Assembly (NCBI RefSeq): GCF_014647375.1 | Contig: NZ_BMPB01000023.1 | Coordinates: 1-61,844 of the forward strand | Length of the DNA: 61,844 nucleotides | DNA from: Parabacteroides faecis | Lineage (GTDB): Bacteria; Bacteroidota; Bacteroidia; Bacteroidales; Tannerellaceae | Direction of reading: 5' to 3' | Part shown: positions 12,557-46,981 of the stretch, piece after piece | Layout of the letters: every line of letters begins with the position of its first letter | How positions within the stretch are numbered: the first letter of the stretch is position 1 | The notes under the pieces: generated by a model | Database searches by the model: none | What the model saw: only the letters and a program-made list of their open reading frames with translations | Told to the model about the DNA's origin: nothing | Made by a program: the position numbers and the translations under genes

Positions 12557-13540
12557 ATGGCAATAACAAAAGAAAACAATCAGAAGAAAAAAGGGCTTTT
12601 TCTGCATGAATATGTCGGTCGACGGGCAGAAAGCAAGCGACTGATGGGAAAAGACAGTACGGCTGATCTTTATCAGGCAGCCGGTCATCATTTTTTTGTC
12701 TTCCAGGGAAACAGGGATATTCGGGTCTGTGACGTAACGGCGACTCAGGTGAACGATTTTCAGGCTTACTTGCAGGCAAAAGGATTAAAGATCAATACGA
12801 TCAATAGCTACCTGAGCAGTCTTCGGGCGATATACAATGCCGCCTTCGACGACAAACCGTTTAAAAGAAAACTGCATCCGTTCCACAAACTGAGACTGAA
12901 ACGCGATATGACGGTCAAAAAGCCATTGTCGGACCAGCAGGTGAAAAAGATGGCGACAGCCGATTTTCGTGACCGTCCCGATCTGACCCTGGCAACGGAT
13001 CTGGCTCTTTTCAGCTTTATGGCGTATGGCATGCCTTTTGTAGACATGGTGCACCTGACGCGGAAGAATATCCATGGACAGGCTATCGTGTACAACCGGC
13101 ATAAGACCGGTATAGAGATACGTGTCGAGATCACCTCCGGCATGTGGCAGATGATCCGTAAATATGAATCATCGGGCAGCGATTACCTTTTCCCTGTGAT
13201 GTTTGCCTCGGCTACTTACCAACAGTATAAGTCCATGCTGTCTGCCCATAACGAAACATTGAAACAGGTGGGGCAGTTATTGGGTATTCATAATAACCTT
13301 ACCTCGTATGTGATGCGTTATACCTGGGCCTCCGAAGCCCGTCGGTTGCATGTGGATATCGCCGTGATCAGTCAGGCATTAGGGCATACGAACGAAAAAA
13401 CGACGCGGGGCTACTTCAACCGACTCGACCAGCCGGAACTCGATCAGGCGAATCGAAAGATTACAAATCCGATTTGTAAAATACTGTCGGATAAGCAGAA
13501 ACGCATAAATTGGCGGGGAGTTGAAGCTACTTATTTATGA
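12557..13540 (+). CDS. tyrosine recombinase, probable promoter invertase
   Basis: A 327-residue site-specific recombinase of the Bacteroidales type. Residues 10-110 are the SAM-like core-binding domain; residues about 125-300 are the catalytic domain. Visible active-site residues are K183 (NRHKTG), R254 (SYVMRYTWAS), H277 (ALGH) and the nucleophile Y286 (RGYFNRL). The first arginine is expected at position 157 (normally RGMxFVDM), but here reads AYGMPFVDM, so RI appears to be Tyr. Its stop codon lies inside the left 18-bp inverted repeat of the adjacent 377-bp segment, and that repeat would be rebuilt unchanged after inversion. The position suggests it flips the pilus promoter. Confidence 0.8.
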   Translation: MAITKENNQKKKGLFLHEYVGRRAESKRLMGKDSTADLYQAAGHHFFVFQGNRDIRVCDVTATQVNDFQAYLQAKGLKINTINSYLSSLRAIYNAAFDDKPFKRKLHPFHKLRLKRDMTVKKPLSDQQVKKMATADFRDRPDLTLATDLALFSFMAYGMPFVDMVHLTRKNIHGQAIVYNRHKTGIEIRVEITSGMWQMIRKYESSGSDYLFPVMFASATYQQYKSMLSAHNETLKQVGQLLGIHNNLTSYVMRYTWASEARRLHVDIAVISQALGHTNEKTTRGYFNRLDQPELDQANRKITNPICKILSDKQKRINWRGVEATYL

Positions 13541-13546
13541 AATAAG
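13529..13546 (+). repeat. left inverted repeat of the invertible segment
   Basis: ACTTATTTATGAAATAAG, the exact reverse complement of 13924-13941. Internally it has 7-bp dyad arms (CTTATTT / AAATAAG) around three bases, as expected of a recombinase target. It overlaps the last codons and stop of the recombinase gene. Confidence 0.85.
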
Positions 13547-13923
13547 AACAATTACGAAATGAATGTTGATTCTTATTCGCTTTTGTCTTAATACCTAATA
13601 CTAGATGTCCACAAAGGTAAGAATATTAGTAAAAATAAAGAAAAAATTATCACACTTTTTATGTGTATAGGTAGTAAAGAAGATCTGGTATTAGTGTTTT
13701 GTCTGTAATTTACAATTTTTTTGCCGGTAATAGCTTGTTTATATTGAATTTGATAAAATGAGAATATGATCGGTCACCCTTCCTTGTGTTTTAACAGCTG
13801 TTATGTGAAAGTAACAGTGGATTTATACTCTTTTAAACACAATTGAAAGATAAAATAAAAGAAAAACTATCCTATTGTCTTTCAGTCTTTCTTTCTCAGT
13901 GTGGTTTTTCCGGGCTGATAAAA
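13547..13923. promoter_or_regulatory. invertible promoter segment, OFF orientation
   Basis: A 377-bp AT-rich, non-coding segment between perfect 18-bp inverted repeats, directly after a tyrosine recombinase and in front of the pilus operon. The only consensus TAnnTTTG -7 box is TACCTTTG on the minus strand (13612-13619), facing the recombinase. I found none on the plus strand. Flipping would put it at about 13851-13858, starting transcription roughly 100 bp upstream of the HTH-repeat gene. A 12-bp palindrome TAACAGCTGTTA lies at 13792-13803. Confidence 0.8.
13612..13619 (-). promoter_or_regulatory. -7 box TACCTTTG on the invertible segment
   Basis: A perfect TAnnTTTG match on the minus strand, so in this orientation it points away from the pilus operon. 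Confidence 0.7.
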
Positions 13924-13941
13924 CTTATTTCATAAATAAGT
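13924..13941 (-). repeat. right inverted repeat of the invertible segment
   Basis: CTTATTTCATAAATAAGT, the exact reverse complement of 13529-13546. It ends 22 bp before the HTH-repeat protein start codon. Confidence 0.85.
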
Positions 13942-13963
13942 TCAAACAAAACCAGCATTAGAA

Positions 13964-15064
13964 ATGGTTGATGATAAAAAGACAACATTTTCTCCTTCTG
14001 TAACCACTCTTTCCGAGAAATACTCGGAAGCGGTATCTTTGTATGCCACCACGGACATGACAAGCAAACAAATAGCCAGTCAATGTGGAGTCAGCCTTTC
14101 CGCTTTCCGCGTCTATCTGAGACGGCATCACCGTGACCTGGTCTTACGACGTTACGGGGTCGAAGCGGATTCGAATGAACTTGCTTCCATCAAGCTGCGC
14201 GGTCGTCGGGGACAAACACCGGCAGCCTACCATAAATATAAGGAAGCCATTGAAGCCTGCGACAACCTGTCTTATATCGAATTTAATATCTCCCAAATCG
14301 CCCGGCAGTTTAACCTGGACGGAACCTCTCTTTCCAACCAGCTGAAACTCCATTATCCGGAGATTCTGGAACGCCGGGAGAAGACTCGCGTACGTTTGGG
14401 GCTGGCCGACAACTTCCTGCGCGGTGCCCATCCCGACAGTGTCGAAGCCTATGCCGCCGCCGTCGAGCTGCTGCGTACGACCGATATGAACCTGCCGGCC
14501 ATTGCCAGGAAGTGCGGTGTGTCGATAGGCGGACTCAGCCAATACCTCCGCTTTTACCATAAGGAACTGCTGGAGCAAAAGAACGGCGAACGGCAGGAGG
14601 CCGCCCAATCCCGTCAACCGGGAAAGGCTAGCGGTAACAGCCGTATCCGCGAACCGCATCCCGAATCGTGCGAGAAATACCGTGAATCGCTGGAGCTTTA
14701 CCGTACGACCGGTCTGACGGTCAAGGAAATCGTAGCTCGTACGGGTGTCTCCTTGGGCGGTTTCTGCAATCACCTTCGCAAATGGCACCGCGACCTCATG
14801 CTCGAACGGCGGGGAGTCGTGCCAGCCTCAGACTGCAATGTCTATGAACTCGACCTGAAGCAGTCGAAACGCTACCTCAAGTCTACCGCCTCCAAATACG
14901 CCGGTGCCATCGAAAGCCTTCGTACGACCCCTCGTCTGTTGGCGCAAGTGGCGTCCGAATACGGTTTCAATCCTGATACTTTCCGCGACTACCTTCACCG
15001 GCACGAGCCTGAGCTGGCGGTAAGCAATGCGGCAAAGCTTCGCATGAAAAGAAAGATACAGTAA
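13964..15064 (+). CDS. protein of five tandem HTH-like repeats
   Basis: A 366-residue basic protein built of five divergent repeats of about 48 residues, near 17-65, 88-137, 160-206, 236-284 and 308-352. The typical unit runs KYxEAVELYRTTDMT, xxIAxxCGVSLGGFxxYLR, xxHRDLxLERRGV. Each looks like a helix-turn-helix; units 2 and 5 are the most diverged. No catalytic domain is seen. It is the first gene after the invertible promoter, 21 bp before the DUF3575 gene. Proteins like this occur in Bacteroidales fimbrial loci, but the role is unproven. DNA binding and control of the pilus operon is the obvious guess. Confidence 0.7.
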   Translation: MVDDKKTTFSPSVTTLSEKYSEAVSLYATTDMTSKQIASQCGVSLSAFRVYLRRHHRDLVLRRYGVEADSNELASIKLRGRRGQTPAAYHKYKEAIEACDNLSYIEFNISQIARQFNLDGTSLSNQLKLHYPEILERREKTRVRLGLADNFLRGAHPDSVEAYAAAVELLRTTDMNLPAIARKCGVSIGGLSQYLRFYHKELLEQKNGERQEAAQSRQPGKASGNSRIREPHPESCEKYRESLELYRTTGLTVKEIVARTGVSLGGFCNHLRKWHRDLMLERRGVVPASDCNVYELDLKQSKRYLKSTASKYAGAIESLRTTPRLLAQVASEYGFNPDTFRDYLHRHEPELAVSNAAKLRMKRKIQ

Positions 15065-15085
15065 CAATAAAATAACAAACAGATT

Positions 15086-15691
15086 ATGATTAAAAGATTA
15101 ACATTTATCCTAAGCCTGCTGATGGCAGGACTTTTCACTCAAGCACAGGAAGCTGTACGGCCTGGCGTGGTGGAAAGTAAAGGTTCGGTTGTTGGTATCA
15201 AGACCAACCTTCCGTACTGGGCTACGGCTACCTTCAACCTGGGTGCTGAAGTACGCCTTGCCCGCCACTGGAGCCTCAGTGCCGAAGTCGGCGTCAATCC
15301 CTTCGACGGGAAGAATGATGACGGCAGCTATGGCCAATCCCTCAAGCACCTGCGTGTCCATCCGGAACTGCGCTACTGGTTTTGCGAAACATTCCACAAG
15401 CACTTTGTCGGCCTGCATGTCCCTTACCTATTATATAATGTATCCGACATCAAGCTGCTGGGTACGGAAGGCGAACGCCACCAGGGATGGGGTACAGGCG
15501 CAGGCATCAGCTACGGCTACTCGTGGCTGCTCTCCAAACACTGGAACCTCGAAGCCACGGTGGGCGTGGGATACCTCTACCTCGAATCGGAGAAATACCC
15601 CTGTGCCAACTGCGGACGCAAGCAGGAGACTGTCAAGAAACATTATTTCGGCCCCACGCAGGCAGCCATCAGCCTGATTTATCAATTCTAA
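15086..15691 (+). CDS. DUF3575 outer-membrane beta-barrel protein
   Basis: A 201-residue protein with a signal peptide (cleavage after TQAQ, near residue 21). The rest alternates in beta-strand fashion (VGIKTNLPYWATATFNLGAE, HWSLSAEVGVNP, LRVHPELRYWF, WNLEATVGVGYLYL) and ends in IYQF, a typical outer-membrane barrel C-terminus. DUF3575 proteins are regular members of Mfa/FimA pilus operons and are thought to help assembly or anchoring. It is in a tightly packed operon: 21 bp after the HTH-repeat gene and 23 bp before the OmpA-like gene. The GC content is high compared with the fimbrillin genes further on. Confidence 0.85.
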   Translation: MIKRLTFILSLLMAGLFTQAQEAVRPGVVESKGSVVGIKTNLPYWATATFNLGAEVRLARHWSLSAEVGVNPFDGKNDDGSYGQSLKHLRVHPELRYWFCETFHKHFVGLHVPYLLYNVSDIKLLGTEGERHQGWGTGAGISYGYSWLLSKHWNLEATVGVGYLYLESEKYPCANCGRKQETVKKHYFGPTQAAISLIYQF

Positions 15692-15714
15692 ACTATCCTA
15701 AACTATCTGAGCAC

Positions 15715-17142
15715 ATGAAAAAGAACAACATACTCATCATGACCGCTGGCCTTTTGCTATCAGCCGTAACTGCCGGCGCACAGGAAATCGTCGTCAAAGA
15801 CAAGATTGTGGAAAAGGCGGGTTCCGCGCTGGTTATGGGCATGACGCTCGACCTGAGCCAAATCCGGCTGGCAGGCAACCGCAGCATCGTCTGCACCCCC
15901 GTCATCGTTCGCGGCGACAGTATACGTCCGCTCGCCCCGGTCATCATCAATGGTCGCAGCCGCCACATCCTGTATGAACGTACGGGCCGCAACCGCCAGG
16001 AAAACCAGGAGATCGAACTGCGCCGCCGCAACGGGAAAGAACAGACGGTCGACTACCAGGTGCGTACGCCCTACGCCTCCTGGATGAACAATGCCGAAGT
16101 GGCCCTTGTCACCGACGAATGCGGCTGCGGATGGGAAGCGATGCAAAGTAACCGTTCGCCGCTCTTCGCCATACAGCTTGAAAAACCGATTATGACCCCC
16201 TTCCTTTGCTATCAAACGCCCAAAATGGAAACCGTCAAAGCACGTGCCAAAGAGGGAAGCGCCTTCCTCGACTTCCCCGTAGGCAAGACAACCATTGCAC
16301 CCGACTATCGCGACAACCGGGCCGAGCTGGCCAAAATACGCGAAACGGTCGAATCCGTACGCAACGACCCGTATGCTACCATCACCGAAGTCTATATTAA
16401 AGGCTTTGCCTCGCCCGAAGGCAGCTATAAGAGTAACAGCTACCTGGCCGAGAACCGTGCCAAGGCGCTCAGCGACTACGTGAAAGGACTCTATCATTTC
16501 GACCGCGCCACCTTCACCGTCGACTTCGAACCCGAAGACTGGGACGGACTGGCCGCACACATCGAAACCTCCGGGCTGGCAGACAAGGCCGAGTTGCTCG
16601 ACATCATCCGTGCCGACCAGCCCGCCGACCTCGACCAGAAGGAATGGAAACTCAAGACGCTCAACGGTGGCGCTTCATACCCTGCTATCCTCCGCGACAT
16701 CTATCCCTCCCTGCGACATTCGGACTATGCAGTGAAGTACACCATCCGAAACTTTTCCGTAGAAGAGGCCAAGGAACTGATCTACACCGATCCGAAGCAG
16801 CTGAGCCTGGACGAGATGTTCCGCGTGGCACAGACCTACGAGCCGGGCAGCGACCAGTACAACGAAGTCTTCGAGATTGCCGTCCGCATGTATCCCGACG
16901 ACCCTGTGTCTAATCTGAACGCTGCCAATACAGCCATCGGTAATAAGCAGTTGGCACAGGCAAAACGCTATCTGAGCAAGGCTGCCGATTCTCCGGAGAA
17001 GCAGTTGGCGGAAGCTTCCATCGTCATGCTGGAGGGTGATCTCGATCGGGCAGAGCAACTGCTCGACCGGCTGAAAGGTACCCCGAGCGTATCGGAAGCC
17101 GTAGAAAAGAATCTGGAGCAAATCCGCCTTTGGCGGGAGTAG
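15715..17142 (+). CDS. OmpA-like pilus-operon protein (DUF3868-type)
   Basis: A 475-residue exported protein. The start at 15715 is chosen because it begins a signal peptide (MKKNNILIMTAGLLLSAVTAGAQ region, cleavage after AGAQ); the open frame extends upstream only as a shadow of the previous gene. Residues 25-200 fit the DUF3868 region found in pilus operons. Residues about 210-330 carry an OmpA-like signature (VYIKGFASPEGSYKSNSYLAENRAKAL). The C-terminus has TPR-like helices (NLNAANTAIGNKQLAQAKRYLSKAAD). It probably anchors the pilus machinery to the envelope. It sits between the DUF3575 and fimbrillin genes. Confidence 0.8.
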   Translation: MKKNNILIMTAGLLLSAVTAGAQEIVVKDKIVEKAGSALVMGMTLDLSQIRLAGNRSIVCTPVIVRGDSIRPLAPVIINGRSRHILYERTGRNRQENQEIELRRRNGKEQTVDYQVRTPYASWMNNAEVALVTDECGCGWEAMQSNRSPLFAIQLEKPIMTPFLCYQTPKMETVKARAKEGSAFLDFPVGKTTIAPDYRDNRAELAKIRETVESVRNDPYATITEVYIKGFASPEGSYKSNSYLAENRAKALSDYVKGLYHFDRATFTVDFEPEDWDGLAAHIETSGLADKAELLDIIRADQPADLDQKEWKLKTLNGGASYPAILRDIYPSLRHSDYAVKYTIRNFSVEEAKELIYTDPKQLSLDEMFRVAQTYEPGSDQYNEVFEIAVRMYPDDPVSNLNAANTAIGNKQLAQAKRYLSKAADSPEKQLAEASIVMLEGDLDRAEQLLDRLKGTPSVSEAVEKNLEQIRLWRE

Positions 17143-17237: not shown

Positions 17238-19238
17238 ATGAAAGTGAACATGAAAAAGAACAGACTTTACGCAGCAATGGCAGCCGTCGTTCTACTTGCT
17301 GCCGGCTGTACAGACAAAATTGGAGATGGTACAGAACTGGAAAATCCGGAAGAACTCAATGGCCAGAAATGCTACCTGACTGTAAATATTGCTACTGGAA
17401 CGAGTGGCGGTTTTACGAAGGCTGGAAGTTCCAATGGTGAAGGTGACCAGTATTTGGAGGAAATTAAAGGATTGAAAGAAGATGAAATTAACGATGTTAA
17501 TATCTTCTTATTTGAAGTTCCTGCAAGTATAACTGAGAATGATAAGTTACTGAAGACTTTGAACGCTGATCTTACTACTGATATAGATATAGCAGGACAT
17601 GGTTATGTAGGCAACCTAAATGAAACACCAAATGGCGGTAGTGAAGCATACCATGATAAAGCTGATGTCGTAGTAACATTGAAAGATCCATTAGGTGATA
17701 ATGAGTCTAAAACGTATCAGGTTTTGACAATTGTTAATGCTGGAAGTTCTCTCACAAATTATACAAAATTATCACAGTTAAGGGATGCAACGTTTGATAA
17801 GGCATGGACTGGTGGTGCATCAGATCTTGCTTCCTATACTAATTTTGTAATGTCTACCCATCAGATGAAGGGAAATACAGCAGAATCAACAGTAGAACTG
17901 AGTAAGAATAATACCAGCGAAGGTAATCCTGCTCACACTACAGTATATGTAGAACGTTTGGCTGCTCGTGTTGATTTGAAGGTTGCAGAGAACTTGTCAA
18001 GCAGTTCAAGAACAGACGGAACATTCGCTGTTACTCGCTATTTACCTGTAAACTTGTGGACTGGTAATACATATATGTTTAAGCAGGTTTCTCCATCTGT
18101 GACTAGCTGGACTGGTGCTATACCAGCTGTGGATGCGGTATATAGTGATGGTGAATATAAATACTTGGGCGATGAAATATGGAACAATACCGGCAATGGT
18201 ACAGGTACGTTTAATTACGTATTGGATCCACAAACAAGAACTAAAACAGCAACTCAAACTGATAATTTTAATAACAACAACTTTTCTTATACTAATCACT
18301 TTATTTCAAACACGACCACTTTAGATCCAACAAATGGGGCTTGGAAAGATGTTTCTGTTTTAACTGGAAGCCAGTATACATCCGGAGACTTTACGCCAAT
18401 CTTGTACACAAGAGAAAATACAACAGCTTACGATCAGCAGAAGAATGGTTTTTCAACTGGTGTGATTTTCGAATCTACATTTACTCCTGGTGAGGGTTTT
18501 GGCGTTAGCCTATATAGTGATGGTGTGATTTCATCTGGAAGAACAAACCTACCTCAAGATAAAAGTTTCTTTGTAGCCAACCACTTGGGTACAGATGGAC
18601 ATCATGTAAAGGTTAATTATGCCGATGTTAAGACAATTGCTGCGATGGCTTTTGTTAATATTGAAGATATGTCAAAGCCGCTGTACGAAGGTTTCATGGA
18701 TGGTAGTTGGCTGTCAAATGGTCCAGACTTAACCACACTAGAATCTATTGTAGACAAAATGCAGGAATCAAATCCGGTTGAAGCTGCGTTTAAAGCCTAT
18801 TTGAAAGGTGTTTTTGATGGAGCCGATGAATCAACTTTTGATGATATTAAAGGTCTTTTGAATTATAATTCTTTTGTAGCTGACGCTAAATATAGCAATT
18901 TAACTCAAGATGATCAATCGGATCAGGCCTACGCTGGTATTCTATATGAAAACTATGAAGTATCCTATTATCTCGGCGGTAAGAGTTATTACAAATTCTG
19001 GATTCGTCACGATGATAACCAGAATCCGAACTTGATGTCTGTAATGGAGTTTGCTATTGTCCGTAACAATGTTTATCAGTTGAGTGTAACAGGTGTTAGG
19101 GATTTGGGCGATCCACTGCCTTTCACTCCTGGCAAGGATGATCCTAACAATCCGGACGAAAGCGATGAATTGAAGATTTCTGTTGAGATTTATGTTAAGA
19201 ACTGGGTAAACCGTCTGAACGACAACATCATTCTCTAA
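17238..19238 (+). CDS. Mfa1-like major fimbrial subunit lipoprotein
   Basis: A 666-residue lipoprotein fimbrillin. The signal peptide ends LLAAGC, with the lipid Cys near residue 24; a second start four codons on (17250) is possible. In type V pili, lipoprotein precursors are exported, cleaved by an Arg-gingipain-like protease and polymerised by strand exchange. The C-terminus ISVEIYVKNWVNRLNDNIIL resembles donor-strand ends and is echoed in the FimB-like protein (FKIQVKDWVIRLNQ). The gene is AT-rich compared with its flanks. A hairpin just after its stop may keep its expression above that of the downstream subunits. Confidence 0.85.
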   Translation: MKVNMKKNRLYAAMAAVVLLAAGCTDKIGDGTELENPEELNGQKCYLTVNIATGTSGGFTKAGSSNGEGDQYLEEIKGLKEDEINDVNIFLFEVPASITENDKLLKTLNADLTTDIDIAGHGYVGNLNETPNGGSEAYHDKADVVVTLKDPLGDNESKTYQVLTIVNAGSSLTNYTKLSQLRDATFDKAWTGGASDLASYTNFVMSTHQMKGNTAESTVELSKNNTSEGNPAHTTVYVERLAARVDLKVAENLSSSSRTDGTFAVTRYLPVNLWTGNTYMFKQVSPSVTSWTGAIPAVDAVYSDGEYKYLGDEIWNNTGNGTGTFNYVLDPQTRTKTATQTDNFNNNNFSYTNHFISNTTTLDPTNGAWKDVSVLTGSQYTSGDFTPILYTRENTTAYDQQKNGFSTGVIFESTFTPGEGFGVSLYSDGVISSGRTNLPQDKSFFVANHLGTDGHHVKVNYADVKTIAAMAFVNIEDMSKPLYEGFMDGSWLSNGPDLTTLESIVDKMQESNPVEAAFKAYLKGVFDGADESTFDDIKGLLNYNSFVADAKYSNLTQDDQSDQAYAGILYENYEVSYYLGGKSYYKFWIRHDDNQNPNLMSVMEFAIVRNNVYQLSVTGVRDLGDPLPFTPGKDDPNNPDESDELKISVEIYVKNWVNRLNDNIIL

Positions 19239-19364: not shown

Positions 19365-20516
19365 ATGAATATGAATAATTTATTGCATACCTGTAAACAG
19401 CTGCTCTGCGCCGCAGCCCTTATCGGACTGCCCGCCTGCGACTGGATACACGACGACTCGCTGCCGCTTTGCGAGTATCGTCTGCATTTTAAATACGACT
19501 ACAACATGAAATTTGCCGACGCCTTCCAGCAGGAAGTCGACCAACTGACGCTCTTCTTCTGCGACGAGGCTGGCAACTTCCTCTACCAGCGGCAAATCAA
19601 CCAGGCGGAACTGACCGACGGCTCCATCGCACTCGACCTCGAACCCGGCACCTACCAGCTCCTTACCTGGGCCGGACTCAAAGCCGATAGCTACGAGTTG
19701 CCCCAACTGACTGCCGGCACCTCGACTATTAAAGATATTAAAGCACGCACCCTGCGCAACGCCGACGCCACCCAGCCCAACGAACTGGACGCCCTCTGGC
19801 ATGGCCTCGACACATTGGTGGTGACCCGTGACGTGCCCGAAAGCAAAACCGTCAGCCTGGCCAAAAACACCAACAAGCTGCGTGTCGTCCTCCAAAACGT
19901 GATGGGGGAGGACATGGACGTAAACAATTTCACCTTCCAAATTGTAGCCGACAACGGCTATATGGACTACGACAACAGCCTATTGGAAGACCCCGAAATT
20001 CATTATCTGCCTTACTACACCGAGAACGTGCAGATCGGTGCCGACCCGACCGAAGGAGCCACCATCGGCTCTCAGTTTGTCGCCGTTGCCGAACTCAACA
20101 CCATGCGTCTGATGGACGGCCGCAACTACCGCCTCATCGTGCGCCATGAGGGATGGGAGAACGACGTATTGAACGTCAACCTCAACAACTACCTCCTCCT
20201 CACCAAAATGGAAGGCCACCGCATCTCGGCTCAGGAATACCTCGACCGCCAGGACGAGTACTCCATCATCTTCTTCATGACCCCGGTAACTTGTCCCGAC
20301 TGTCCGGACCCTGAAGATCCGGATCCCGAGAAACCTGACCCCGAAGACCCTGACCCTGAAAAGCCAGATCCCGAAGACCCTGATAAACCTGACCCCAAAC
20401 CGGATCCGGATCCTAAACCCGATCCCGCCCCTGAAGACCCGACAATCGTCGGCTACGCCTGCTTCAAAATCCAGGTAAAAGATTGGGTCATCCGTTTGAA
20501 CCAAGGTGAACTTTAA
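19365..20516 (+). CDS. FimB/Mfa2-family fimbrial subunit (anchor)
   Basis: A 383-residue lipoprotein; the lipobox is GLPAC, Cys25. The body matches the FimB/Mfa2 anchor family (SLPLCEYRLHFKYDYNMKFADAF, LFFCDEAGNFLYQR, EPGTYQLLTWAGLK). This family caps the pilus base and limits its length. Residues about 313-357 are an Asp-Pro-Glu-Lys-rich tract coded by imperfect DNA repeats (20303-20440). After it comes a strand, CFKIQVKDWVIRLNQGEL, like the fimbrillin C-terminus. That fusion of an anchor with a fimbrillin-like tail is a little unusual. GC content is clearly higher than in the genes on either side. Confidence 0.85.
   Translation: MNMNNLLHTCKQLLCAAALIGLPACDWIHDDSLPLCEYRLHFKYDYNMKFADAFQQEVDQLTLFFCDEAGNFLYQRQINQAELTDGSIALDLEPGTYQLLTWAGLKADSYELPQLTAGTSTIKDIKARTLRNADATQPNELDALWHGLDTLVVTRDVPESKTVSLAKNTNKLRVVLQNVMGEDMDVNNFTFQIVADNGYMDYDNSLLEDPEIHYLPYYTENVQIGADPTEGATIGSQFVAVAELNTMRLMDGRNYRLIVRHEGWENDVLNVNLNNYLLLTKMEGHRISAQEYLDRQDEYSIIFFMTPVTCPDCPDPEDPDPEKPDPEDPDPEKPDPEDPDKPDPKPDPDPKPDPAPEDPTIVGYACFKIQVKDWVIRLNQGEL
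20303..20440 (+). repeat. imperfect short repeats coding a PDPE(K)-rich tract
   Basis: Repeated units of the form GACCCTGAAGATCCGGA / CCCGAGAAACCTGAC encode DPEDPDPEKP-type sequence in the FimB/Mfa2-like protein. The tract may vary in length by slippage between strains. Confidence 0.7.
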
Positions 20517-20528
20517 AACAATTATACA

Positions 20529-22175
20529 ATGAAACACTATACATATATATTATATAACAAAGCAGCAGCAGTAGCCTTCACGCTACTGCTCTTGCTGCTT
20601 TCCCCCTCCTGTAGCAAGGAAAGCGGTAGCGGCACCCCCGACCTCCCCGACGAACCGCAGCTTTGCACGGTGACGATTTCGCTGCAGGCACCTAATTCTC
20701 TGCGCCCGATAACAAGAGCTAGTGGAGAGGAGGTTTCGACAGATTGGGCTACCAAAGAAGAAGAATCTGCGTATGAAAGAAATATTTCGGACTGGATTGT
20801 GGTGGCTTATGACGAAAATGGTACTTATGCAGGGCATTTACTAGGTAATCTGTATAATAGTGATGACGAAGATTCCCAGACATCATTGGAAATGCAATTG
20901 CCGACGGGGAGATATAACTTTTATGCTTTTGCAAACTTAGGTAGTTTGGAGAGTGGGGATGGCATAAAAGATAATATTATAAATCCAGAAAAGGGAGAAG
21001 CATATATAAAAGATTTAACAGTCAATGTCGGTGATTTGTCTGCCAAGTTTAATACACCGACATCTGAAGCAAAACAACTTATCCCAATGAGTAGCTACGC
21101 TCAGGAGCAGGCTATTACCCAAGATTCCCAATTGGAGATTCCACTGATTCGTATGATTGGGAAAGTGAAGGTAACTATAAGTAATAGCTTGGATCAAGCT
21201 ATAACGGTCAAAAATCTTACACTGGGAAAGTTTAGGCGTAATGGATTGATTAACTTTTTGCCTTGGGGTGAAAATAAGTATTTGGAGTTTAATGGAGTAA
21301 ATTATCCTAATAAAAATCAAGGACCGCCTTTTGAATCGGATGATTATGCAGAAACATCATATTCTTATGTATTATTGGATGATCAGGGTGAGGAAATAGC
21401 GAAAGATGCTGAAACACAGTCCTACAGTTGTTATGTTGAAGAAACTCTGTTTACAAAACTTAATGAGACAAAAGGCTTGCTTCTGAATTTGGATATAGAG
21501 GGCCGGGAGACTATAGAAAGAGAAACTAATTTCGATTTTGTTCGTCGCAACGACTTGCTGGAAATTCCATTGATGGTAACAGAATTGGATGGAACGATAA
21601 CCATCGGAGATATGCGCCTACCAATTGGCGTATTCCCGACAAAGTATGAATTTGGTGTGGGAAGCTCTATCCAGATTCTTACTCCTATCACTCACTATTT
21701 GCAGAGTGCGGGAGATTTGGTTATTAATTATGCATTGAGTGATCCTGTATCCGGAAAAGTGTGGAAGATTAAATATAAAGAAAATCCAGCTAATCCCGAA
21801 ACAGAGAAATTTAGTAATTATATGTTGATACCAGCTCACTCCGGAAGTGGTAACCTGTTGCTTGATAGAGAAACGAACACAGAGTTAACGCAAAGTAAAA
21901 CAATATATACATTCGATAACCCTGCTGTGTCTGAAGCAGGTTCTGCTGCAGATAAATCAAAGTCAGGTTCCTTTACAATCCGTACGCAAGAACTGGCAAA
22001 AACGGCAAGTGCAACTATCAAACTGACATTGATTGTAGAATATGGGAAAAATGAAAATGAAAGTTTTACAAAAGAAGGAGAAATCGAAATCCCCTACACA
22101 ATAAACATAACAAACGCTCCGGAATCAACAACCGATGAAGGAGGAGAAACAACAACGAAAGGAGGTAAGGCATGA
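20529..22175 (+). CDS. minor fimbrial subunit lipoprotein
   Basis: A 548-residue lipoprotein with lipobox SPSC (Cys28). The N-terminal half has the minor-fimbrillin pattern (VTISLQAP, WIVVAYDENGTYAGHLLGNLYN, LPTGRYNFYAFANLG, MSSYAQEQAI, IPLIRMIGKVKVTISN); a DUF4906-type assignment is possible but unchecked. It is probably an accessory subunit near the pilus tip. The first 180 bp are GC-rich, then composition drops sharply to AT-rich from about 20710 and stays so into the next gene. Its stop overlaps the start of the tip gene by 4 bp (ATGA), suggesting coupled translation. Confidence 0.75.
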   Translation: MKHYTYILYNKAAAVAFTLLLLLLSPSCSKESGSGTPDLPDEPQLCTVTISLQAPNSLRPITRASGEEVSTDWATKEEESAYERNISDWIVVAYDENGTYAGHLLGNLYNSDDEDSQTSLEMQLPTGRYNFYAFANLGSLESGDGIKDNIINPEKGEAYIKDLTVNVGDLSAKFNTPTSEAKQLIPMSSYAQEQAITQDSQLEIPLIRMIGKVKVTISNSLDQAITVKNLTLGKFRRNGLINFLPWGENKYLEFNGVNYPNKNQGPPFESDDYAETSYSYVLLDDQGEEIAKDAETQSYSCYVEETLFTKLNETKGLLLNLDIEGRETIERETNFDFVRRNDLLEIPLMVTELDGTITIGDMRLPIGVFPTKYEFGVGSSIQILTPITHYLQSAGDLVINYALSDPVSGKVWKIKYKENPANPETEKFSNYMLIPAHSGSGNLLLDRETNTELTQSKTIYTFDNPAVSEAGSAADKSKSGSFTIRTQELAKTASATIKLTLIVEYGKNENESFTKEGEIEIPYTINITNAPESTTDEGGETTTKGGKA

Positions 22176-25100
22176 TGAAAAGATATATAAATAAGTTGGG
22201 TAAGATATTACTTGCATCTACTTTATTAATAGGTGGAAGTGGAGGTTTGGTTTATGGACAAGATACTGTGGAAGACGACCATGAGAGTACTACTATAAGC
22301 TTTACTAATACAGGTGATAGAATAAAGCCTACAGAAGAAGTCATTTATGCTTTACCTAATGTCCCTAAAAACATCTATTTCCAGTATGCTTATACGAGAG
22401 ATAATATAGATGGGTTTATTTCGTGGAGGAATTTGAGTAACACCCAAAATCCCAAAGCAAATTTGACAAGACCTCAGGGCTATAGACCTAATTATAGAGT
22501 AGGAGGGGCTTGGGAATGGTCGGATGATGAACCCAAAAATTTCTGGTCTGATGGCAATTACAGATTAGTTGAATACCAAAATGCTTTTGCGTGGTTTAGA
22601 AATAGCGATGATAGTAATACATCTTATTGCTATACCGTAACAAAGAGTAGCAGAGATAATGTAATTGGAGATATTACCCATAAGCGTGATAATTTGAATA
22701 ATTCTTATTCTACACTTGCCAGTACTTGTTATATCACATATCAAAATAATACCATAAATGGTAATGAAATAATAGAATGTTCGGCAAGCTCTGTCCTGCC
22801 GACCTCATGGACTGTAGATAGGAGCAGACAATCCCCAGAGTTAACAGTAATACGTCGCTACCAAATAAAAAATGGGGCAGAAAGAGGTGATAAATTGAAG
22901 AATAACAGAGAGGTGATGGGGACTAGCAAATGGCTTATCAATGTAGATGCAACCTTGCCGGAAGCTTATCGTAACAATCCAGGTACATATTTCATTGAGA
23001 CTCCAGTTATTCATACACCTATGACACGTGGTACGAGTTACCGTCTTGCTGAGAGGCTGACAAACTATTATGTACCGTCAGGCGGTAACTATGCAGAAGC
23101 GGGACAAGTACGTTGGAGAGCGTATGACGAGAATGGTTATCCGTCACAGGGGAATATTGAATTTTATGGGGAGAACAAGAAAACGGCTTCATATACAATA
23201 CAAGAACAAAAAACAGACTTGAATTTGGCGGCAAACGAAAATCGATCTGTGGCAAGTATTTTGAATTTCTATTTTAATTACAATGAAGAGAATTCATCAA
23301 GTCAACAAAAATTTTATCTGACTGCCGAAGTGGCGGCAGAGGGTGGAGATACTTGGTATCCAGTTTCTCTCATTACAGTTTATTTGGAACCTCATTCTGA
23401 TCCGATGACACAAGAGGAACTATGTGATATAAACAATGAAGATGATCCTCTGTATCAGCGAAGATTTTCTTATATAAATAAGCATTATACTTTATTGGCT
23501 AGTGAAACATTTGATGGAGAGCAGGGGGAGAAAAAAGAAATAGAGACTAATCTTAGTTCTAATAATAACTATCGCTCTACCCCTTTTACAAACAGCGAAT
23601 CTTTTTATGCATATACTTATCCTTCAGAGAATAGAGATGAAGGTCGAAAATCGGCAGGTCGAGGAGAATATGGATTGTATAGAACTTTGAATTATGAGGG
23701 TGTATCTCAAACTAACTATACAGATTATTTTAAGAGTGTATATAATCATGAAGTGATAGACCGCAATAAAGAACTTGCTGATAGTAGATTCGAAGAAGAG
23801 AGACCTGAAGATTATGAAGATGGATTTGGTTATTTCTTATATGTAGATGCTGCGGATGAAGCAGGTGTTATAACCAAGTTGAAATTTAATGAGGATTTGT
23901 GTCCTAACACTCGTTTGTTGGTTACAGCATGGGTTTGTAATTTGGGTGGTACTTATGGTTTAAGTGCAGATGTGGGACTGACTTTTAAAGGAGTAAAAGA
24001 TAGTGGCGAAGAAGAAATTCTGAATAAGTTTTATACAGGAGCTGTTAAGAATGTACCGGAAACTAACGATCCGCAGAGACAAACAGTAAAATGGCAACAA
24101 ATCTATTTTTATTTCAACTATTCAGCAACGGAAGATACTTATGAATCGTATGTGTTGGAGTTAGCTAATAACTGTCGCCACTCCGGTGGTGCTGACTACG
24201 CGATTGATGATATTCGAATTTATCGCTCATTGCCAGATATACGTGTAGAGCGCATCAACGATTGTGATGCCACAACGCTGGAAGTAACAACTGACGTATT
24301 GACCCTATTCGCTAATATGAATTGGGATCAAGATCAGCCGGTACTAGAGAGCCAACAGAGAGAAAATGAAATATTGGGCGATTATACTACTCGAAAGTAT
24401 CGGTATGGCTTGATGGGGTTGAAAGAAGGAGGAGTCATAAATGGTGAAGATGATGTGTATTCCGGAAACTTCTATTTTGCTTTTTTGGACAACTTCGATC
24501 CAGAAACGCAAAATCGTGATTATGATTGGGTTGCCATAAACAAAGATGCCCTAGGAAATGTGCCGGAAGCAGTACATGCCGCCCGTGTTTCATTGACAAC
24601 TAAACTTGAGTTAATGCCGAGAAGTGCCGAAAGAGCTTTAATTGCTGAAAGGTATATGAATATTCAGGCAATGATAGACTATAATTCTGATTATCAACAC
24701 GTAAAGGAGAGTTATGACCAATTTACAAATAAAGAGAATCCCGATGCTGAATTTGATGTCTCCTTGGGAAATGGAAGCTCTTTCAAGATGACTGTTACTG
24801 AAGCTATGCAGTTCTTGAATCTGTCAGATGATGGTTCGTCGCAAGAACTCTTGGATCTCACAGCTTTGGTTGATAACACCTCGTCTTCTCCAAATGTAGG
24901 TAGTTGGGATGATAACAAGTTAGCCAAATATACTCAAAATGTTATAGAGCTATACCACCGTTTGCATATCCCTCGCATTCGCTATCCTTGGCTTAGTTCA
25001 GATGGGAGTACGCTTCATATCAGTACGATAGATGTTGATAATACAGATTTGAAATGCTTTGAATACGATTCAAATGGGACGACTGTTAAACATGATGGTA

Positions 25101-28100
25101 AATACCATGTTATGATCTTTACGGCAGAAGAAGTAGCAGGAGTAAATACGACAGAAGTAAGCCCTGTAGGTAAATGTAAGTTGGTTTCTCCATTCCAGGT
25201 GCAAGGTGTTGTACAAATCAATATCATCACAGGAACTCAGCATGAGGCAGCCTTATGCGTCGGCAATCAGAGACAGCTATCTGCTTACTTATTACAATGG
25301 GAAGAAGGTAGTGAGGAACCCACAAAATTGGAGGTAGAAGATGGCTATATTTTTGACTGGTATCTAGGTCCTATGGAAGGGGAAGGAGAGGATGGAATAC
25401 CTAGCTATTCCTCACTGGAGATTAAAGGGGCAGATGATAAATCTTTAACTTTAAAAGAAGCCCTATCTGAATATCGAAACGCTGTTAATAATCCCAAAGG
25501 CGTTATATCAGTTGATGCTTTGGAAGAATGGTCCTCTTCGGTTGGTAACATAAAGGAGGTTCTAATCGACTTGATTCAGCGTGGACTTTTGCAAACAGGA
25601 AAATTTGCAAATGAAACTTTCACAATGATTGTAAGGAGTGATGAAATTGTAGCAATGCCTTATGTCTCTAATCCGGCAGATCAGAATATACACTATTGTA
25701 CAGAAGAATCTCCTGTGGACTTCGGAGAAGTAGGAGATCACTCACCACTACTATATCCAGGATTTAACAATACAGGAGATGATACAGATTTGGCAAGTGG
25801 TATAGCTTATTTGCGTTTGGGGCTGCTCCATCTTGAAAGTGGAAAATCATTAACAGTCCCTGTTCGTAGTAATGTAGAAATGGCAGATGATGCTACTTCT
25901 TTAAGAGAAGGTAGTAATACAAATATTACTTGGACAAATGTGAATACAGGAAATGTTACAACTGTAGGAACAATCACTGCATTAAATGTTACTGAAGCTG
26001 GTGGAACTATAACTTTCCAATGGAATAATTTTGCGAAAGAAAACTTCAAAGAGGGTATAGAATATCATTTGAATATTCCATTTGTACAATATGATGGTAG
26101 TAATATTCTTAGTAATGAATGCGACGGGCTCGCAACCTTGGCAATCAAAATCGTCCCCGAATACCTAACCTGGTCTGGCGATGCCAACGGCCTCTGGTAC
26201 AACGATAACAACTGGGAGCAGTCAACGAAAGGAGAGTTGTATAAGGATGGTGATGCAGGAACATCAACAGATGATGCTAATGGAACAGATGATATCAAAA
26301 ACGCCTTCTCCCCATTATACTTTACGAAGGTAACAGTTAATCCGGAGAAGATTGTTGATGGTAAAGCAAGTGTTTTGCCATTACGAGAAGAGAAAACAAC
26401 TTTTGTTACTGGAACAGGCAAGCATACATTGAACTTTGGAGCAGATGGTATGAATTTGGATGCAGCTACTGATGCAACTTCTAAATCCGGTGTCACCCCC
26501 AATATCCAATACGACATGGCAGTGGATGGCGAAATTACAGATGGTACAGATAAATCTGACAAATGGTCTATCGTCCCTTACTACGGCAACAAAGTTGACC
26601 AAATCTACTTCAAACCCGGTGCTCAATTACAACGTCAGCAAGAATTGAAATACAACACCGCTCGCGTAGAATTTGAGATGGATAAGGATGCCAAGTATTG
26701 GCTGGCTTCTCCGCTTAAGGATGTATATGCCGGTGATATGTATGCTCCGAAAGGAACAGGTAGGCAGACAACGTATGCGTTTGATCCGATTTCTTATTCA
26801 AAGAATGCACCAAATTCCGAAAATGATCGTCAAAATCCATCTTTCTATCAGAAAGCTTGGGATAAAGGGGTGAATATTTACACAAATGCAGATGGAGACC
26901 TAAGTACACTTTACAGCGTTGTCAAATCCAACTGGAGTGTTGAATACAATGATGTAAATGTACCTTATGCTTTGGGTAAAGGTTTCTATGCAAGTGTAGA
27001 AGACTTTACGAATGATGAAAATAAGGCTTTGGTTCGTTTGCCGAAAGAAGATGTTAGCTATACGTATGAAGAGTTGAAGACAAAAGCAGCTACTTCTTTA
27101 TCAAAAACAAATGGTGGTAAATTAGCAGACGGAGCCGAAATCACTGTCACATTATCTAGTGATGATAATGCCAGTGATGCCGATGGCGATGGTAAACATT
27201 TCTTGTTAGGTAATCCATATATGTATCCGTTAAGTCTTGAAAGTTTCTTTGCGGAAAATACAATGTTGGCAAATAAAGTTTGGACATTAAATGGAGGAAC
27301 AGCTATAGTTGGAACTCCAGATTTAGTTAATGGTTGGAATACAGGCGAAAGTTTGACTGAAATTCCCCCAATGCAAGCTTTCTTTGTGGAGTTGAAGGAT
27401 GGTCTGACCGTAGAAACAACAACACAGACAGTCACATTCTCTACAAGTATGATGAAGTCTGATGACGAAACATCCCGCGCCACCCTCCGTTCCTCCATCA
27501 CCGCCTCCCACCCGGTTCTCCGTCTGACGGCTGAGAAGGGAGAGAAGCGAAGCATCGCTTTCCTGACGCAACGCGATGACGCTAGTAACGCTTACGAAAG
27601 TGATAAGGATGCCATCACATTGCTCGATTCGGAACTAACGGAGATACCACAGATCTACACCATTGCCGGTGACCGGGCTGCCGGAGTCAACGCCGTGAAG
27701 ACTATCAATAATATTCCGCTAGGTGTCTACACCGCCTCCGACAAGGACGAAGTGGCGCTGACTATCGAAGGCATCAGCAACCTGCCTGCCGCACTTTATC
27801 TCTACGACGCAAAGACCAAAGAGAATAAGGTATTGACCGGTGACAGCTATACGTTGAACCTGACCGGCGCGACACACGGACGCTACTTCTTGCGTTCGGG
27901 CGATATGCCGACCGGCAATGAAGCCATCGAAGGCAATAATATCTCGATCTATTCCGTAGTAAGAGGCGAAGTAATTGTCAGTGCAACGGAGCCGTTGAAG
28001 CAGATTCAGGTAGTCGCACCTTCCGGCCAGGTGGTACGTTCGTTCTTCCCCAGACAGGCAGTTCATTCTTTCAACTTGCCTCAAGGCATTTACATTATTC

Positions 28101-28150
28101 GTGCCGAAAGCCAGACGGCTATAAAAACAGTGAAATTACAGGTACGTTAA
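22172..28150 (+). CDS. giant pilus-tip / adhesin-like exported protein
   Basis: A 1992-residue exported protein with a signal peptide (cleavage near LVYGQ, residue 30) and no lipobox. Most of it is beta-rich, with low similarity to anything I can name. The last 75 residues form a Por-type sorting-domain-like module (IYSVVRGEVIVSA, IQVVAPSGQVVRSF, FNLPQGIYIIRAESQTAIKTVKLQVR); whether this organism has type IX secretion cannot be seen here. As the last gene of the pilus operon it is the likely tip adhesin. Composition is strongly mosaic: AT-rich to about 27470, then GC-rich for the conserved C-terminus, with GC islands near 26150-26220 and 26480-26660. A terminator follows. Confidence 0.75.
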   Translation: MMKRYINKLGKILLASTLLIGGSGGLVYGQDTVEDDHESTTISFTNTGDRIKPTEEVIYALPNVPKNIYFQYAYTRDNIDGFISWRNLSNTQNPKANLTRPQGYRPNYRVGGAWEWSDDEPKNFWSDGNYRLVEYQNAFAWFRNSDDSNTSYCYTVTKSSRDNVIGDITHKRDNLNNSYSTLASTCYITYQNNTINGNEIIECSASSVLPTSWTVDRSRQSPELTVIRRYQIKNGAERGDKLKNNREVMGTSKWLINVDATLPEAYRNNPGTYFIETPVIHTPMTRGTSYRLAERLTNYYVPSGGNYAEAGQVRWRAYDENGYPSQGNIEFYGENKKTASYTIQEQKTDLNLAANENRSVASILNFYFNYNEENSSSQQKFYLTAEVAAEGGDTWYPVSLITVYLEPHSDPMTQEELCDINNEDDPLYQRRFSYINKHYTLLASETFDGEQGEKKEIETNLSSNNNYRSTPFTNSESFYAYTYPSENRDEGRKSAGRGEYGLYRTLNYEGVSQTNYTDYFKSVYNHEVIDRNKELADSRFEEERPEDYEDGFGYFLYVDAADEAGVITKLKFNEDLCPNTRLLVTAWVCNLGGTYGLSADVGLTFKGVKDSGEEEILNKFYTGAVKNVPETNDPQRQTVKWQQIYFYFNYSATEDTYESYVLELANNCRHSGGADYAIDDIRIYRSLPDIRVERINDCDATTLEVTTDVLTLFANMNWDQDQPVLESQQRENEILGDYTTRKYRYGLMGLKEGGVINGEDDVYSGNFYFAFLDNFDPETQNRDYDWVAINKDALGNVPEAVHAARVSLTTKLELMPRSAERALIAERYMNIQAMIDYNSDYQHVKESYDQFTNKENPDAEFDVSLGNGSSFKMTVTEAMQFLNLSDDGSSQELLDLTALVDNTSSSPNVGSWDDNKLAKYTQNVIELYHRLHIPRIRYPWLSSDGSTLHISTIDVDNTDLKCFEYDSNGTTVKHDGKYHVMIFTAEEVAGVNTTEVSPVGKCKLVSPFQVQGVVQINIITGTQHEAALCVGNQRQLSAYLLQWEEGSEEPTKLEVEDGYIFDWYLGPMEGEGEDGIPSYSSLEIKGADDKSLTLKEALSEYRNAVNNPKGVISVDALEEWSSSVGNIKEVLIDLIQRGLLQTGKFANETFTMIVRSDEIVAMPYVSNPADQNIHYCTEESPVDFGEVGDHSPLLYPGFNNTGDDTDLASGIAYLRLGLLHLESGKSLTVPVRSNVEMADDATSLREGSNTNITWTNVNTGNVTTVGTITALNVTEAGGTITFQWNNFAKENFKEGIEYHLNIPFVQYDGSNILSNECDGLATLAIKIVPEYLTWSGDANGLWYNDNNWEQSTKGELYKDGDAGTSTDDANGTDDIKNAFSPLYFTKVTVNPEKIVDGKASVLPLREEKTTFVTGTGKHTLNFGADGMNLDAATDATSKSGVTPNIQYDMAVDGEITDGTDKSDKWSIVPYYGNKVDQIYFKPGAQLQRQQELKYNTARVEFEMDKDAKYWLASPLKDVYAGDMYAPKGTGRQTTYAFDPISYSKNAPNSENDRQNPSFYQKAWDKGVNIYTNADGDLSTLYSVVKSNWSVEYNDVNVPYALGKGFYASVEDFTNDENKALVRLPKEDVSYTYEELKTKAATSLSKTNGGKLADGAEITVTLSSDDNASDADGDGKHFLLGNPYMYPLSLESFFAENTMLANKVWTLNGGTAIVGTPDLVNGWNTGESLTEIPPMQAFFVELKDGLTVETTTQTVTFSTSMMKSDDETSRATLRSSITASHPVLRLTAEKGEKRSIAFLTQRDDASNAYESDKDAITLLDSELTEIPQIYTIAGDRAAGVNAVKTINNIPLGVYTASDKDEVALTIEGISNLPAALYLYDAKTKENKVLTGDSYTLNLTGATHGRYFLRSGDMPTGNEAIEGNNISIYSVVRGEVIVSATEPLKQIQVVAPSGQVVRSFFPRQAVHSFNLPQGIYIIRAESQTAIKTVKLQVR

Positions 28151-46427: not shown

Positions 46428-46981
46428 ATAAATCCTTCATTCCTTCATCTTATTGTATTAACTATTTGATTATGCTGTTTTTATATATGAAGGATGTTTG
46501 TCAGGATGAAGGAATGTCTTTTGAATTGTCGTTTTTTCATTCACTAATGATGATTCCGAAACGATAAAAAGAGGGAGTATCCACCGAAAGGTTATTTGTA
46601 TGCTAATGTTATTTTAGTGCTAGGATTACTGGGGCTTAGCTTGGTTGTCCTTTCTTTTTCCCTATCTGTTATCTGTCGAACGCTTGTTTGTCAGTTGTCA
46701 AACGCTTGTTCGATAGTTGTATTATAAGCGTTTGACAATTGACAAACAATAAAAAGATAGTAACTCTCATAATAATAAGTAATTATAGATACCCTTACTG
46801 CTTATTATTTTAACCTTACTCCCTACCTGGCATATAAAGTTATCAGGTAGGAATTTTAGGTAGGAATATGAAGATTTCAGCCCCCAATAAATCTGTTTCC
46901 TTCATGTTGTCAAAATTCCTTCATGTACAAAATATCAATAACCAGCTTGTTAGATCAAGGATGAAGGAATGAAGGATTTAT
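46428..46981. mobile_element. 554-bp inverted-repeat element (MITE-like)
   Basis: Exact 22-bp terminal inverted repeats begin at 46428 (ATAAATCCTTCATTCC...) and end at 46981. Each end carries two CCTTCAT heptamers and, further in, two more in the opposite direction, so the subterminal regions are also inverted. In the centre (46684-46749), 24-bp arms pair with one mismatch around an 18-nt loop. No gene is inside. It fills the gap between the alcohol dehydrogenase and acetyltransferase genes. It may be a non-autonomous mobile element or the remnant of one. Confidence 0.55.
46684..46749. repeat. 24-bp inverted repeat with direct-repeat iterons
   Basis: Arms 46684-46707 and 46726-46749 are inverted with one mismatch. 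The left arm overlaps two direct copies of ACGCTTGTTYG-N2-AGTTGT 20 bp apart. No T-run follows, so it does not look like a terminator. Confidence 0.7.

Follow-up and report, generated by a model that had tools for sequence, protein, structure and literature searches.

A recombinase-adjoined promoter segment, very probably invertible, before a type V pilus operon of Parabacteroides and the genus-wide cassette family to which it belongs

The DNA analysed here, a stretch of 61,844 nucleotides from Parabacteroides faecis (hereafter the window), is part of contig C23 in a 6.66-Mb genome and carries what we hold, with high probability, to be a site-specific DNA inversion switch, in which a tyrosine recombinase would flip a 377-bp promoter segment and so turn a pilus operon on or off. 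The original prediction read the locus in this way and is supported in its main points. The anatomy of the locus, the recurrence of its recombination site and of the place of its promoter box, the existence of inverted forms among close relatives, and the presence of both junctions of a sister locus in one assembly are matters of observation. The unit of recombinase and repeat is a genus-wide Parabacteroides family rather than a single case, and for these recombinase-promoter cassettes inversion is visible in assembled genomes. Such cassettes probably determine in which cells type V pili and other surface proteins are produced, and the window's own segment is very probably flippable, switching pili on and off.

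The features of the locus, in window coordinates, are as follows.

12557..13540, + strand: tyrosine recombinase gene, 327 aa, presumed invertase (Pfam matches)
13529..13546, + strand: left recombination site, ACTTATTTATGAAATAAG; its core recurs beside recombinases genus-wide
13547..13923, no strand: putative invertible segment, 377 bp, non-coding; homologous segments of relatives occur in opposite orientations
13612..13619, − strand: putative −7 promoter box, TACCTTTG, directed toward the recombinase (OFF); boxes of OFF segments sit 43–92 bp from a left site (n = 19)
13924..13941, − strand: right recombination site, exact inverted copy of the left
13964..15064, + strand: first operon gene, 366 aa, five helix-turn-helix units (Pfam HTH families; predicted model)
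15086..15691, + strand: DUF3575 outer-membrane-type protein (Pfam E = 2.5e-67)
15715..17142, + strand: DUF3868/OmpA-like protein, 475 aa (start moved from 15487; signal-like N-terminus at 15715)
17238..19238, + strand: Mfa1-family major pilin (NF038041, 170.3 bits, cut-off 130; Fimbrillin_C)
19365..20516, + strand: Mfa2-family anchor pilin (PF08842, E = 4.9e-76)
20529..22175, + strand: Mfa2/Mfa1-like accessory pilin, Mfa2b (PF08842, E = 1e-6; NF038041, 38 bits, below cut-off)
22172..28150, + strand: 1992-aa secreted protein, candidate tip or adhesin (4-bp overlap with the previous gene)

Recombination sites, recombinase and pilus operon

Perfect 18-bp inverted repeats around 377 non-coding bp had been described at this locus, and the description was confirmed: positions 13529–13546 and 13924–13941 agree as reverse complements at 18/18 bp, and the 377-bp spacer has a longest stop-free stretch of 61 codons and a G+C content of 29%, compared with 43% in the window. 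In 60 dinucleotide-preserving shuffles of the window, searched for inverted repeats within 1 kb and with a spacer of more than 30 bp, the longest perfect repeat was 16 bp, reached in two shuffles, and 18 bp was never reached; since the core of the repeat also recurs in the genus, the repeat is not a product of chance. Each arm is nearly a palindrome (CTTATTT-ATG-AAATAAG), so that the direction of the site is set only by its odd-length centre. The window holds a longer perfect inverted repeat (22 bp, 46428/46981, with 510 bp between the arms), which was considered as an inverton and rejected: the genome has related copies, also with inverted ends, on its contigs C10, C13, and C4, and the tested genes at its sides encode a zinc-type dehydrogenase and a hexapeptide transferase, with no recombinase. 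The stretch 46428–46981 is a dispersed non-coding repeat of approximately 550 bp.

The protein encoded at 12557–13540 matches the Pfam families Phage_int_SAM_5 (E = 2.2e-17) and Phage_integrase (E = 2.4e-11), and a profile of 11 recombinase relatives matches the solved XerA, XerC-like, and XerD proteins. A first scan of the contigs with the single recombinase as query found no relative. The gene adjoins the segment on the left, as predicted, and its stop codon (TGA, 13538–13540) falls within the left repeat; because exchange would restore the whole site, stop codon included, the recombinase would be unchanged by a flip. In an alignment to the XerC-like 4a8e, all 11 aligned members (11/11) have proline in place of the first catalytic arginine and tyrosine in place of the box-II histidine; the second arginine, the third-box histidine, and the catalytic tyrosine are kept in the family. 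The window's recombinase thus does not carry the complete canonical R-H-R-H-Y active site, which is typical of most tyrosine recombinases and which we do not treat as defining for this type of switch. IntDOT of Bacteroides is also without the first catalytic arginine. The two substitutions are no argument against activity, because they are common to all 11 aligned proteins, including members of flipped pairs.

To the right of the segment, the gene content is that of a type V (Mfa-type) pilus operon, as judged from Pfam and NF038041 matches, which place both a stalk and an anchor pilin of the Mfa families in it; the original prediction is upheld on this point. By eye, the N-termini of Mfa1, Mfa2, and Mfa2b each show a cysteine after a hydrophobic stretch, as in lipoproteins. 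The 1992-aa protein yielded no family in the Pfam search and a match to a T9SS tail below the cut-off; relatives of it stand at the same place in other loci. Genes between 13964 and 15715 are separated by gaps of 21 and 23 bp, and wider gaps precede the Mfa1 gene (95 bp) and the Mfa2 gene (126 bp). The predicted model of the first gene product contains five four-helix units, with fair local confidence (mean pLDDT 70.7) and poor global confidence (pTM 0.30); this protein, an array of helix-turn-helix (HTH) units, is likely to have a regulatory role.

A cassette family in Parabacteroides

In a collection holding one genome per species, the exact site CTTATTTRTGAAATAAG occurs in 13 of 39 genus genomes, and 12 of the 13 carry it in both directions on a single contig. 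Across the order it was found in five of 393 genomes, namely the three sampled Parabacteroides genomes and two outside the genus, the latter with a single copy each. The best 31 of the 80 named recombinase loci kept (398 found) all belong to Parabacteroides. We assembled 40 loci around recombinase relatives and sites, hand-picked from longer lists, plus the window; omission of three loci that had no recombinase match (L085, L090, and L091) left 38. Beside 33 of these 38 recombinase loci, the window included, the site pair CTTATT-N5-AATAAG bounds a segment of 115–524 bp. It is absent from five, of which L065, L076, and L099 end at contig ends and L086 and L102 do not. In 32 of the 33, no more than 32 bp separate the recombinase stop from the left site; in L100, the exception, the distance is 171 bp.

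Homologues of the window's Mfa proteins accompany 20 of the 33 cassettes, and in two more the fetched stretch reaches a DUF3575 gene before it ends. The fetched stretch of the other 11 contains neither a pilus-type homologue nor DUF3575; pili are therefore the commonest cargo and not the only one. The first gene after the segment encodes a DNA-binding protein in 14/33 operons, DUF3575 directly in 12/33, and something else in 7/33. The DNA-binding products are HTH arrays in five operons (two recognized by Pfam, three by similarity), HU/IHF-type proteins in five (four by Pfam; L067 by its similar start), and HU-DNA_bdg/DUF4469 proteins in four (one by Pfam, three by similar start). The HTH-array family is present in six of the 39 genus genomes, in one as a fragment, and no pair of sites was found at the copies L193, L194, L195, and L196, the gene of L195 starting 222 bp from a contig end. 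With this distribution, including four copies where the search gave no site pair, the HTH-array gene is no fixed part of the switch; it is one of several kinds of first gene in the cassette family, which refines the earlier account of the window.

The cassettes differ in other respects. Eight of the 33 segments (L063, L064, L068, L071, L072, L074, L077, and L097) have a second exact site in tandem on one or both sides, 23–34 bp from the first. Judged from their arrangement, tandem sites would give a switch with more than two states. The possibility that the centre of the site keeps the loci of one genome apart was rejected: in genome G038, loci L063, L064, and L069 share the centre TATGA and L083 has it in reverse. 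Sister loci in genome G012 differ in site centre.

The window's genome holds at least four more cassettes of the family: L079 (G000:C1:631480-631913), L093, L094, and L095. Three cassettes of this genome, on contigs C11, C3, and C7, have the common centre TATAT and nearly identical segments, and exchange between them is conceivable from their sequences. A lone copy of the site with one mismatch is also present (G000:C5:99181-99197, in L005 and L090), with no recombinase match in the 16 kb around it.

Promoter orientation and inverted forms

TAnnTTTG is matched 69 times in the window, compared with a mean of 52 in shuffles, so that a single match is weak evidence; what makes the window's box credible is that its position recurs in relatives. 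As had been noted, only one of the 69 matches lies within the segment (13612–13619, minus strand), and it points away from the pilus genes. No clear −33 element was seen in the sequence before it. Inversion would carry the box to 13851–13858 on the plus strand, 105 bp upstream of the ATG at 13964; the predicted distance of about 100 bp before the HTH-repeat gene agrees with this arithmetic and with the places of boxes in relatives.

We counted outward-facing exact TAnnTTTG boxes 40–110 bp from a segment end in the 33 segments. Nineteen segments have such a box beside the recombinase (OFF) and one has it beside the operon (ON); 13 have no exact match at the tested place, so the OFF/ON count rests on the other 20. 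With seven near-duplicates, chosen by eye, removed, boxes were found at the left in 12 and at the right in one of 26 segments, which still include related ones; the shuffle means were 1.4 and 1.5 and the maxima in 300 shuffles 5 and 6, respectively. The sole operon-end box belongs to L097 of P. distasonis, whose flipped relative L098 carries its box at the recombinase end. In addition, the box TAACTTTG on contig C36 of the P. goldsteinii assembly G013 lies 72 bp away from the right site and points at pilus genes; this locus stands outside the 33 segments because its contig is without a recombinase. In the list of named loci, which partly overlaps the 33, L131 (Parabacteroides sp.) has an operon-facing box 67 bp from the end and is a candidate for another ON form, and in L130 each end carries a box; both cut against the OFF excess. 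These box positions, together with the two relatives whose boxes face a pilus operon (L097 and C36), support the reading, proposed from the window by itself, that its segment is in the OFF orientation, like that of its closest relative, L063 of G038.

Comparison with related genomes, a check that the original prediction had called for, revealed inverted forms. The assembly G013 holds both junctions of a sister locus. On contig C53, a recombinase 76% identical to the window's is followed by the site and one end of the segment, the promoter end adjoining the recombinase. On contig C36 (reverse strand), the same 60 bp of recombinase end and site are followed by the other end, and beyond the segment come DUF3575, DUF3868, and a Fimbrillin_C pilin. 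At each side, C53 and C36 are identical over a stretch of 77 bp, as would be expected of an assembly graph forking between two orientations. No second junction was found at the contig-end loci in G033 and G022.

Four comparisons of homologous segments are inverted, on a scale where the wrong orientation gives 53–62% identity in five direct pairs. The C36 segment matches that of L064 in G038 at 94% inverted and 62% direct; the corresponding values are 82% and 63% for L097 and L098, 76% and 59% for L071 and L072 (two loci of one genome), and 80% and 66% for L075 and L096. Flanks are parallel in the last three pairs. For C36 and L064, the sequences adjoining the sites agree in parallel (77 and 34 bp), and it is this comparison only that gives parallel flanks, the 60-bp flanks being 54% and 52% identical because a tandem site displaces the left flank in L064 and, on the right, the two sequences part soon after the site. 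Among 26 pairs of similar segments, 23 agree in orientation and three are inverted.

The window and L063 share one orientation, at 97% identity across the segment, and their recombinases are 98% identical; no inverted form of the window's own copy was present among the loci compared. Their similarity breaks off approximately 11 bp past the right site (window 13942–13952; L063 about 17997–18023, minus strand), where the HTH array of the window stands against an HU-type gene in L063. Such a break beside recombinases and segments so alike suggests that the switch cassette has been exchanged between operons.

Mechanism, alternatives and known switches

The switch would work as follows. The recombinase would bind the two inverted, nearly palindromic sites, pair them, and flip the 377-bp segment, with strand exchange, to judge from the sequence, within the 5-bp centre. 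As the half-sites are symmetric, the odd centre, which reads ATG or CAT by direction, would leave inversion rather than excision as the only matched exchange. A single promoter is proposed approximately 70 bp from one segment end. In the sequenced orientation it would fire at the recombinase and leave the pilus operon OFF; inverted, it would read through the right site and transcribe the HTH-array gene together with the DUF3575-DUF3868-Mfa1-Mfa2 operon. If transcription is assumed to start 5 bases beyond the box, the start, in the sequenced form some 67 bp beyond the recombinase stop and directed at it, would come to lie some 100 bp upstream of the first gene of the operon. We infer from sequence that the recombinase acts on these sites, that the window's copy inverts, and that transcription follows orientation.

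Several alternatives were weighed against this scheme. The 18-bp repeat might be a pair of transcription terminators, a dispersed repeat, or a chance match; its arms are self-complementary and could form a weak hairpin (−3.9 kcal/mol), but only one pair of the stem is G-C, a T run is missing, site pairs go together with recombinase ends, and both the shuffles, which stayed below 18 bp, and the segments seen inverted contradict such a reading, which we regard as next to impossible. It is very improbable that G013 owes its opposite junctions to a pair of paralogous loci and not to inversion. C53 and C36 do share only short stretches, and the full second form is not in one piece; against this, the shared stretches are exact and of equal length, like a fork in an assembly graph, the next recombinase among the matches listed in G013 is 50% identical and partial, and G038 has a matching locus in the other orientation. 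A switch that is a fossil, its family inverting elsewhere and the window's copy being locked, is likewise improbable. The shared orientation of the window and L063, with no inverted form in the compared loci, is what a locked copy would show, yet both sites are perfect, the recombinase reading frame is open and almost identical to that of L063, and the sister locus in P. goldsteinii is found in both forms.

A further alternative agrees with the inversion scheme up to the last step, and the two probabilities are not exclusive: the segment would mainly control the recombinase, through antisense transcription or read-through, or the HTH-array regulator, and the pilus genes would use a promoter of their own downstream. 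The OFF promoter facing the recombinase from so near its stop, the variety of first genes, and the wide gaps before the Mfa1 and Mfa2 genes are in its favour; between the OFF promoter and the start of the recombinase gene, the search for an antisense terminator gave only one match, at chance level (12838–12854). The tight spacing of the genes from 13964 to 15715 and the 12 loci in which DUF3575 comes first, with no regulator between, speak against it, and we think it unlikely.

The inversion switch may, moreover, be wired to itself, a proposal that we advance tentatively and as possible rather than probable. Antisense RNA from the OFF form would run over the recombinase gene, damp inversion, and hold cells OFF; in the ON form, the first gene product, DNA-binding in 14 of the 33 operons, would act back on this or other switches, the whole being a modular, movable cassette. 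If so, cassettes with conserved half-sites and variable centres would be self-biased memory elements that can move between operons. The OFF excess could be built in by such an arrangement, given an OFF promoter facing the recombinase and no convincing antisense terminator, or it may result from selection in culture. Together with a DNA-binding first gene, it raises the testable question of what biases switches of this kind.

Within the Bacteroidales, Bacteroides is already known to invert promoters by means of tyrosine recombinases encoded at the locus, and the window is a well-supported further case. In B. fragilis, the recombinase gene of Tsr19 (BF2766) is described as having an invertible promoter, IVp-I, immediately downstream, with a TAnnTTTG box that was shown to matter (PMC4747536). 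By description, this resembles the window in the order of recombinase and promoter and in the box, and by this likeness the window's switch may work as IVp-I does. IVp-I is reported to be mostly OFF in broth, with 1.03% IVp-I-ON in an inoculum (PMC4747536), and among invertible promoters of resistance genes in metagenomes, four of 96 cases are given as mainly ON (PMC8748976); the OFF excess in Parabacteroides fits these cases. IVp-I also has several repeats on one side, as do the eight tandem-site segments, and more repeats between it and its genes are reported to go with lower expression (PMC4747536); tandem sites may, by analogy, tune operon output. Unlike the window's segment, IVp-I is described as controlling extracellular polysaccharide genes and a distant second promoter (PMC4747536). 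Also in B. fragilis, an outer-surface-protein locus with a tyrosine recombinase (Weinacht et al. 2004) is cited as phase-variable and linked to a fimbrial protein (PMC12632263).

The fim switch of E. coli offers a second, non-homologous parallel. There, genes for tyrosine-type recombinases lie upstream on the same strand, and FimE is under orientation control; the geometry of the window would allow a similar coupling of its recombinase to orientation. The fim segment, served by FimB and FimE, is described as an invertible promoter of 314 bp before the pilus operon and as acted on by IHF (PMC8777976), and HU/IHF-type genes open five of the 33 Parabacteroides operons. The two systems differ, as far as fim is described there, in their unrelated pili, 9-bp repeats, two recombinases, and another promoter type.

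In the open-access literature that was searched, we found neither this site nor pilus switches of this kind described for Parabacteroides. Numerous inversion sites are reported in P. distasonis (PMC5903667), and the present loci may be among the tables of that work. PhaseFinderDC describes inverton groups in which fimbrillin genes are possibly driven by invertible promoters, and states that nearby invertases are usually not driven by these promoters (PMC11892184); Parabacteroides has 0 occurrences in its main text. The present analysis adds a cassette family that spans the genus, inverted examples from assembled genomes, and the question whether a DNA-binding first gene or antisense RNA feeds back on the switch. 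With half-sites and centres known, the pilus state could be scored from metagenome reads.

Outside the genus, a different inverted repeat of at least 13 bp lies near the recombinase end in 24 of 42 named loci of distant recombinases, many of these repeats being nearly palindromic (loci of B. fragilis, Phocaeicola, and Prevotella); a few of the 24 may be due to chance. The layout thus seems to be old and the sequence of the site particular to each lineage. In the 24 repeat-bearing loci, near-identical pairs included, a left-facing box stands within 110 bp in 14 and a right-facing one in three. One such locus, L145 of B. fragilis Q1F2, has in order a recombinase, a 20-bp inverted repeat, a left-facing box, DUF3575, DUF3868, and clostripain; it differs from the window in its site sequence, ACTCTTTCTTATAATGAAAG, and its recombinase is 38% identical.
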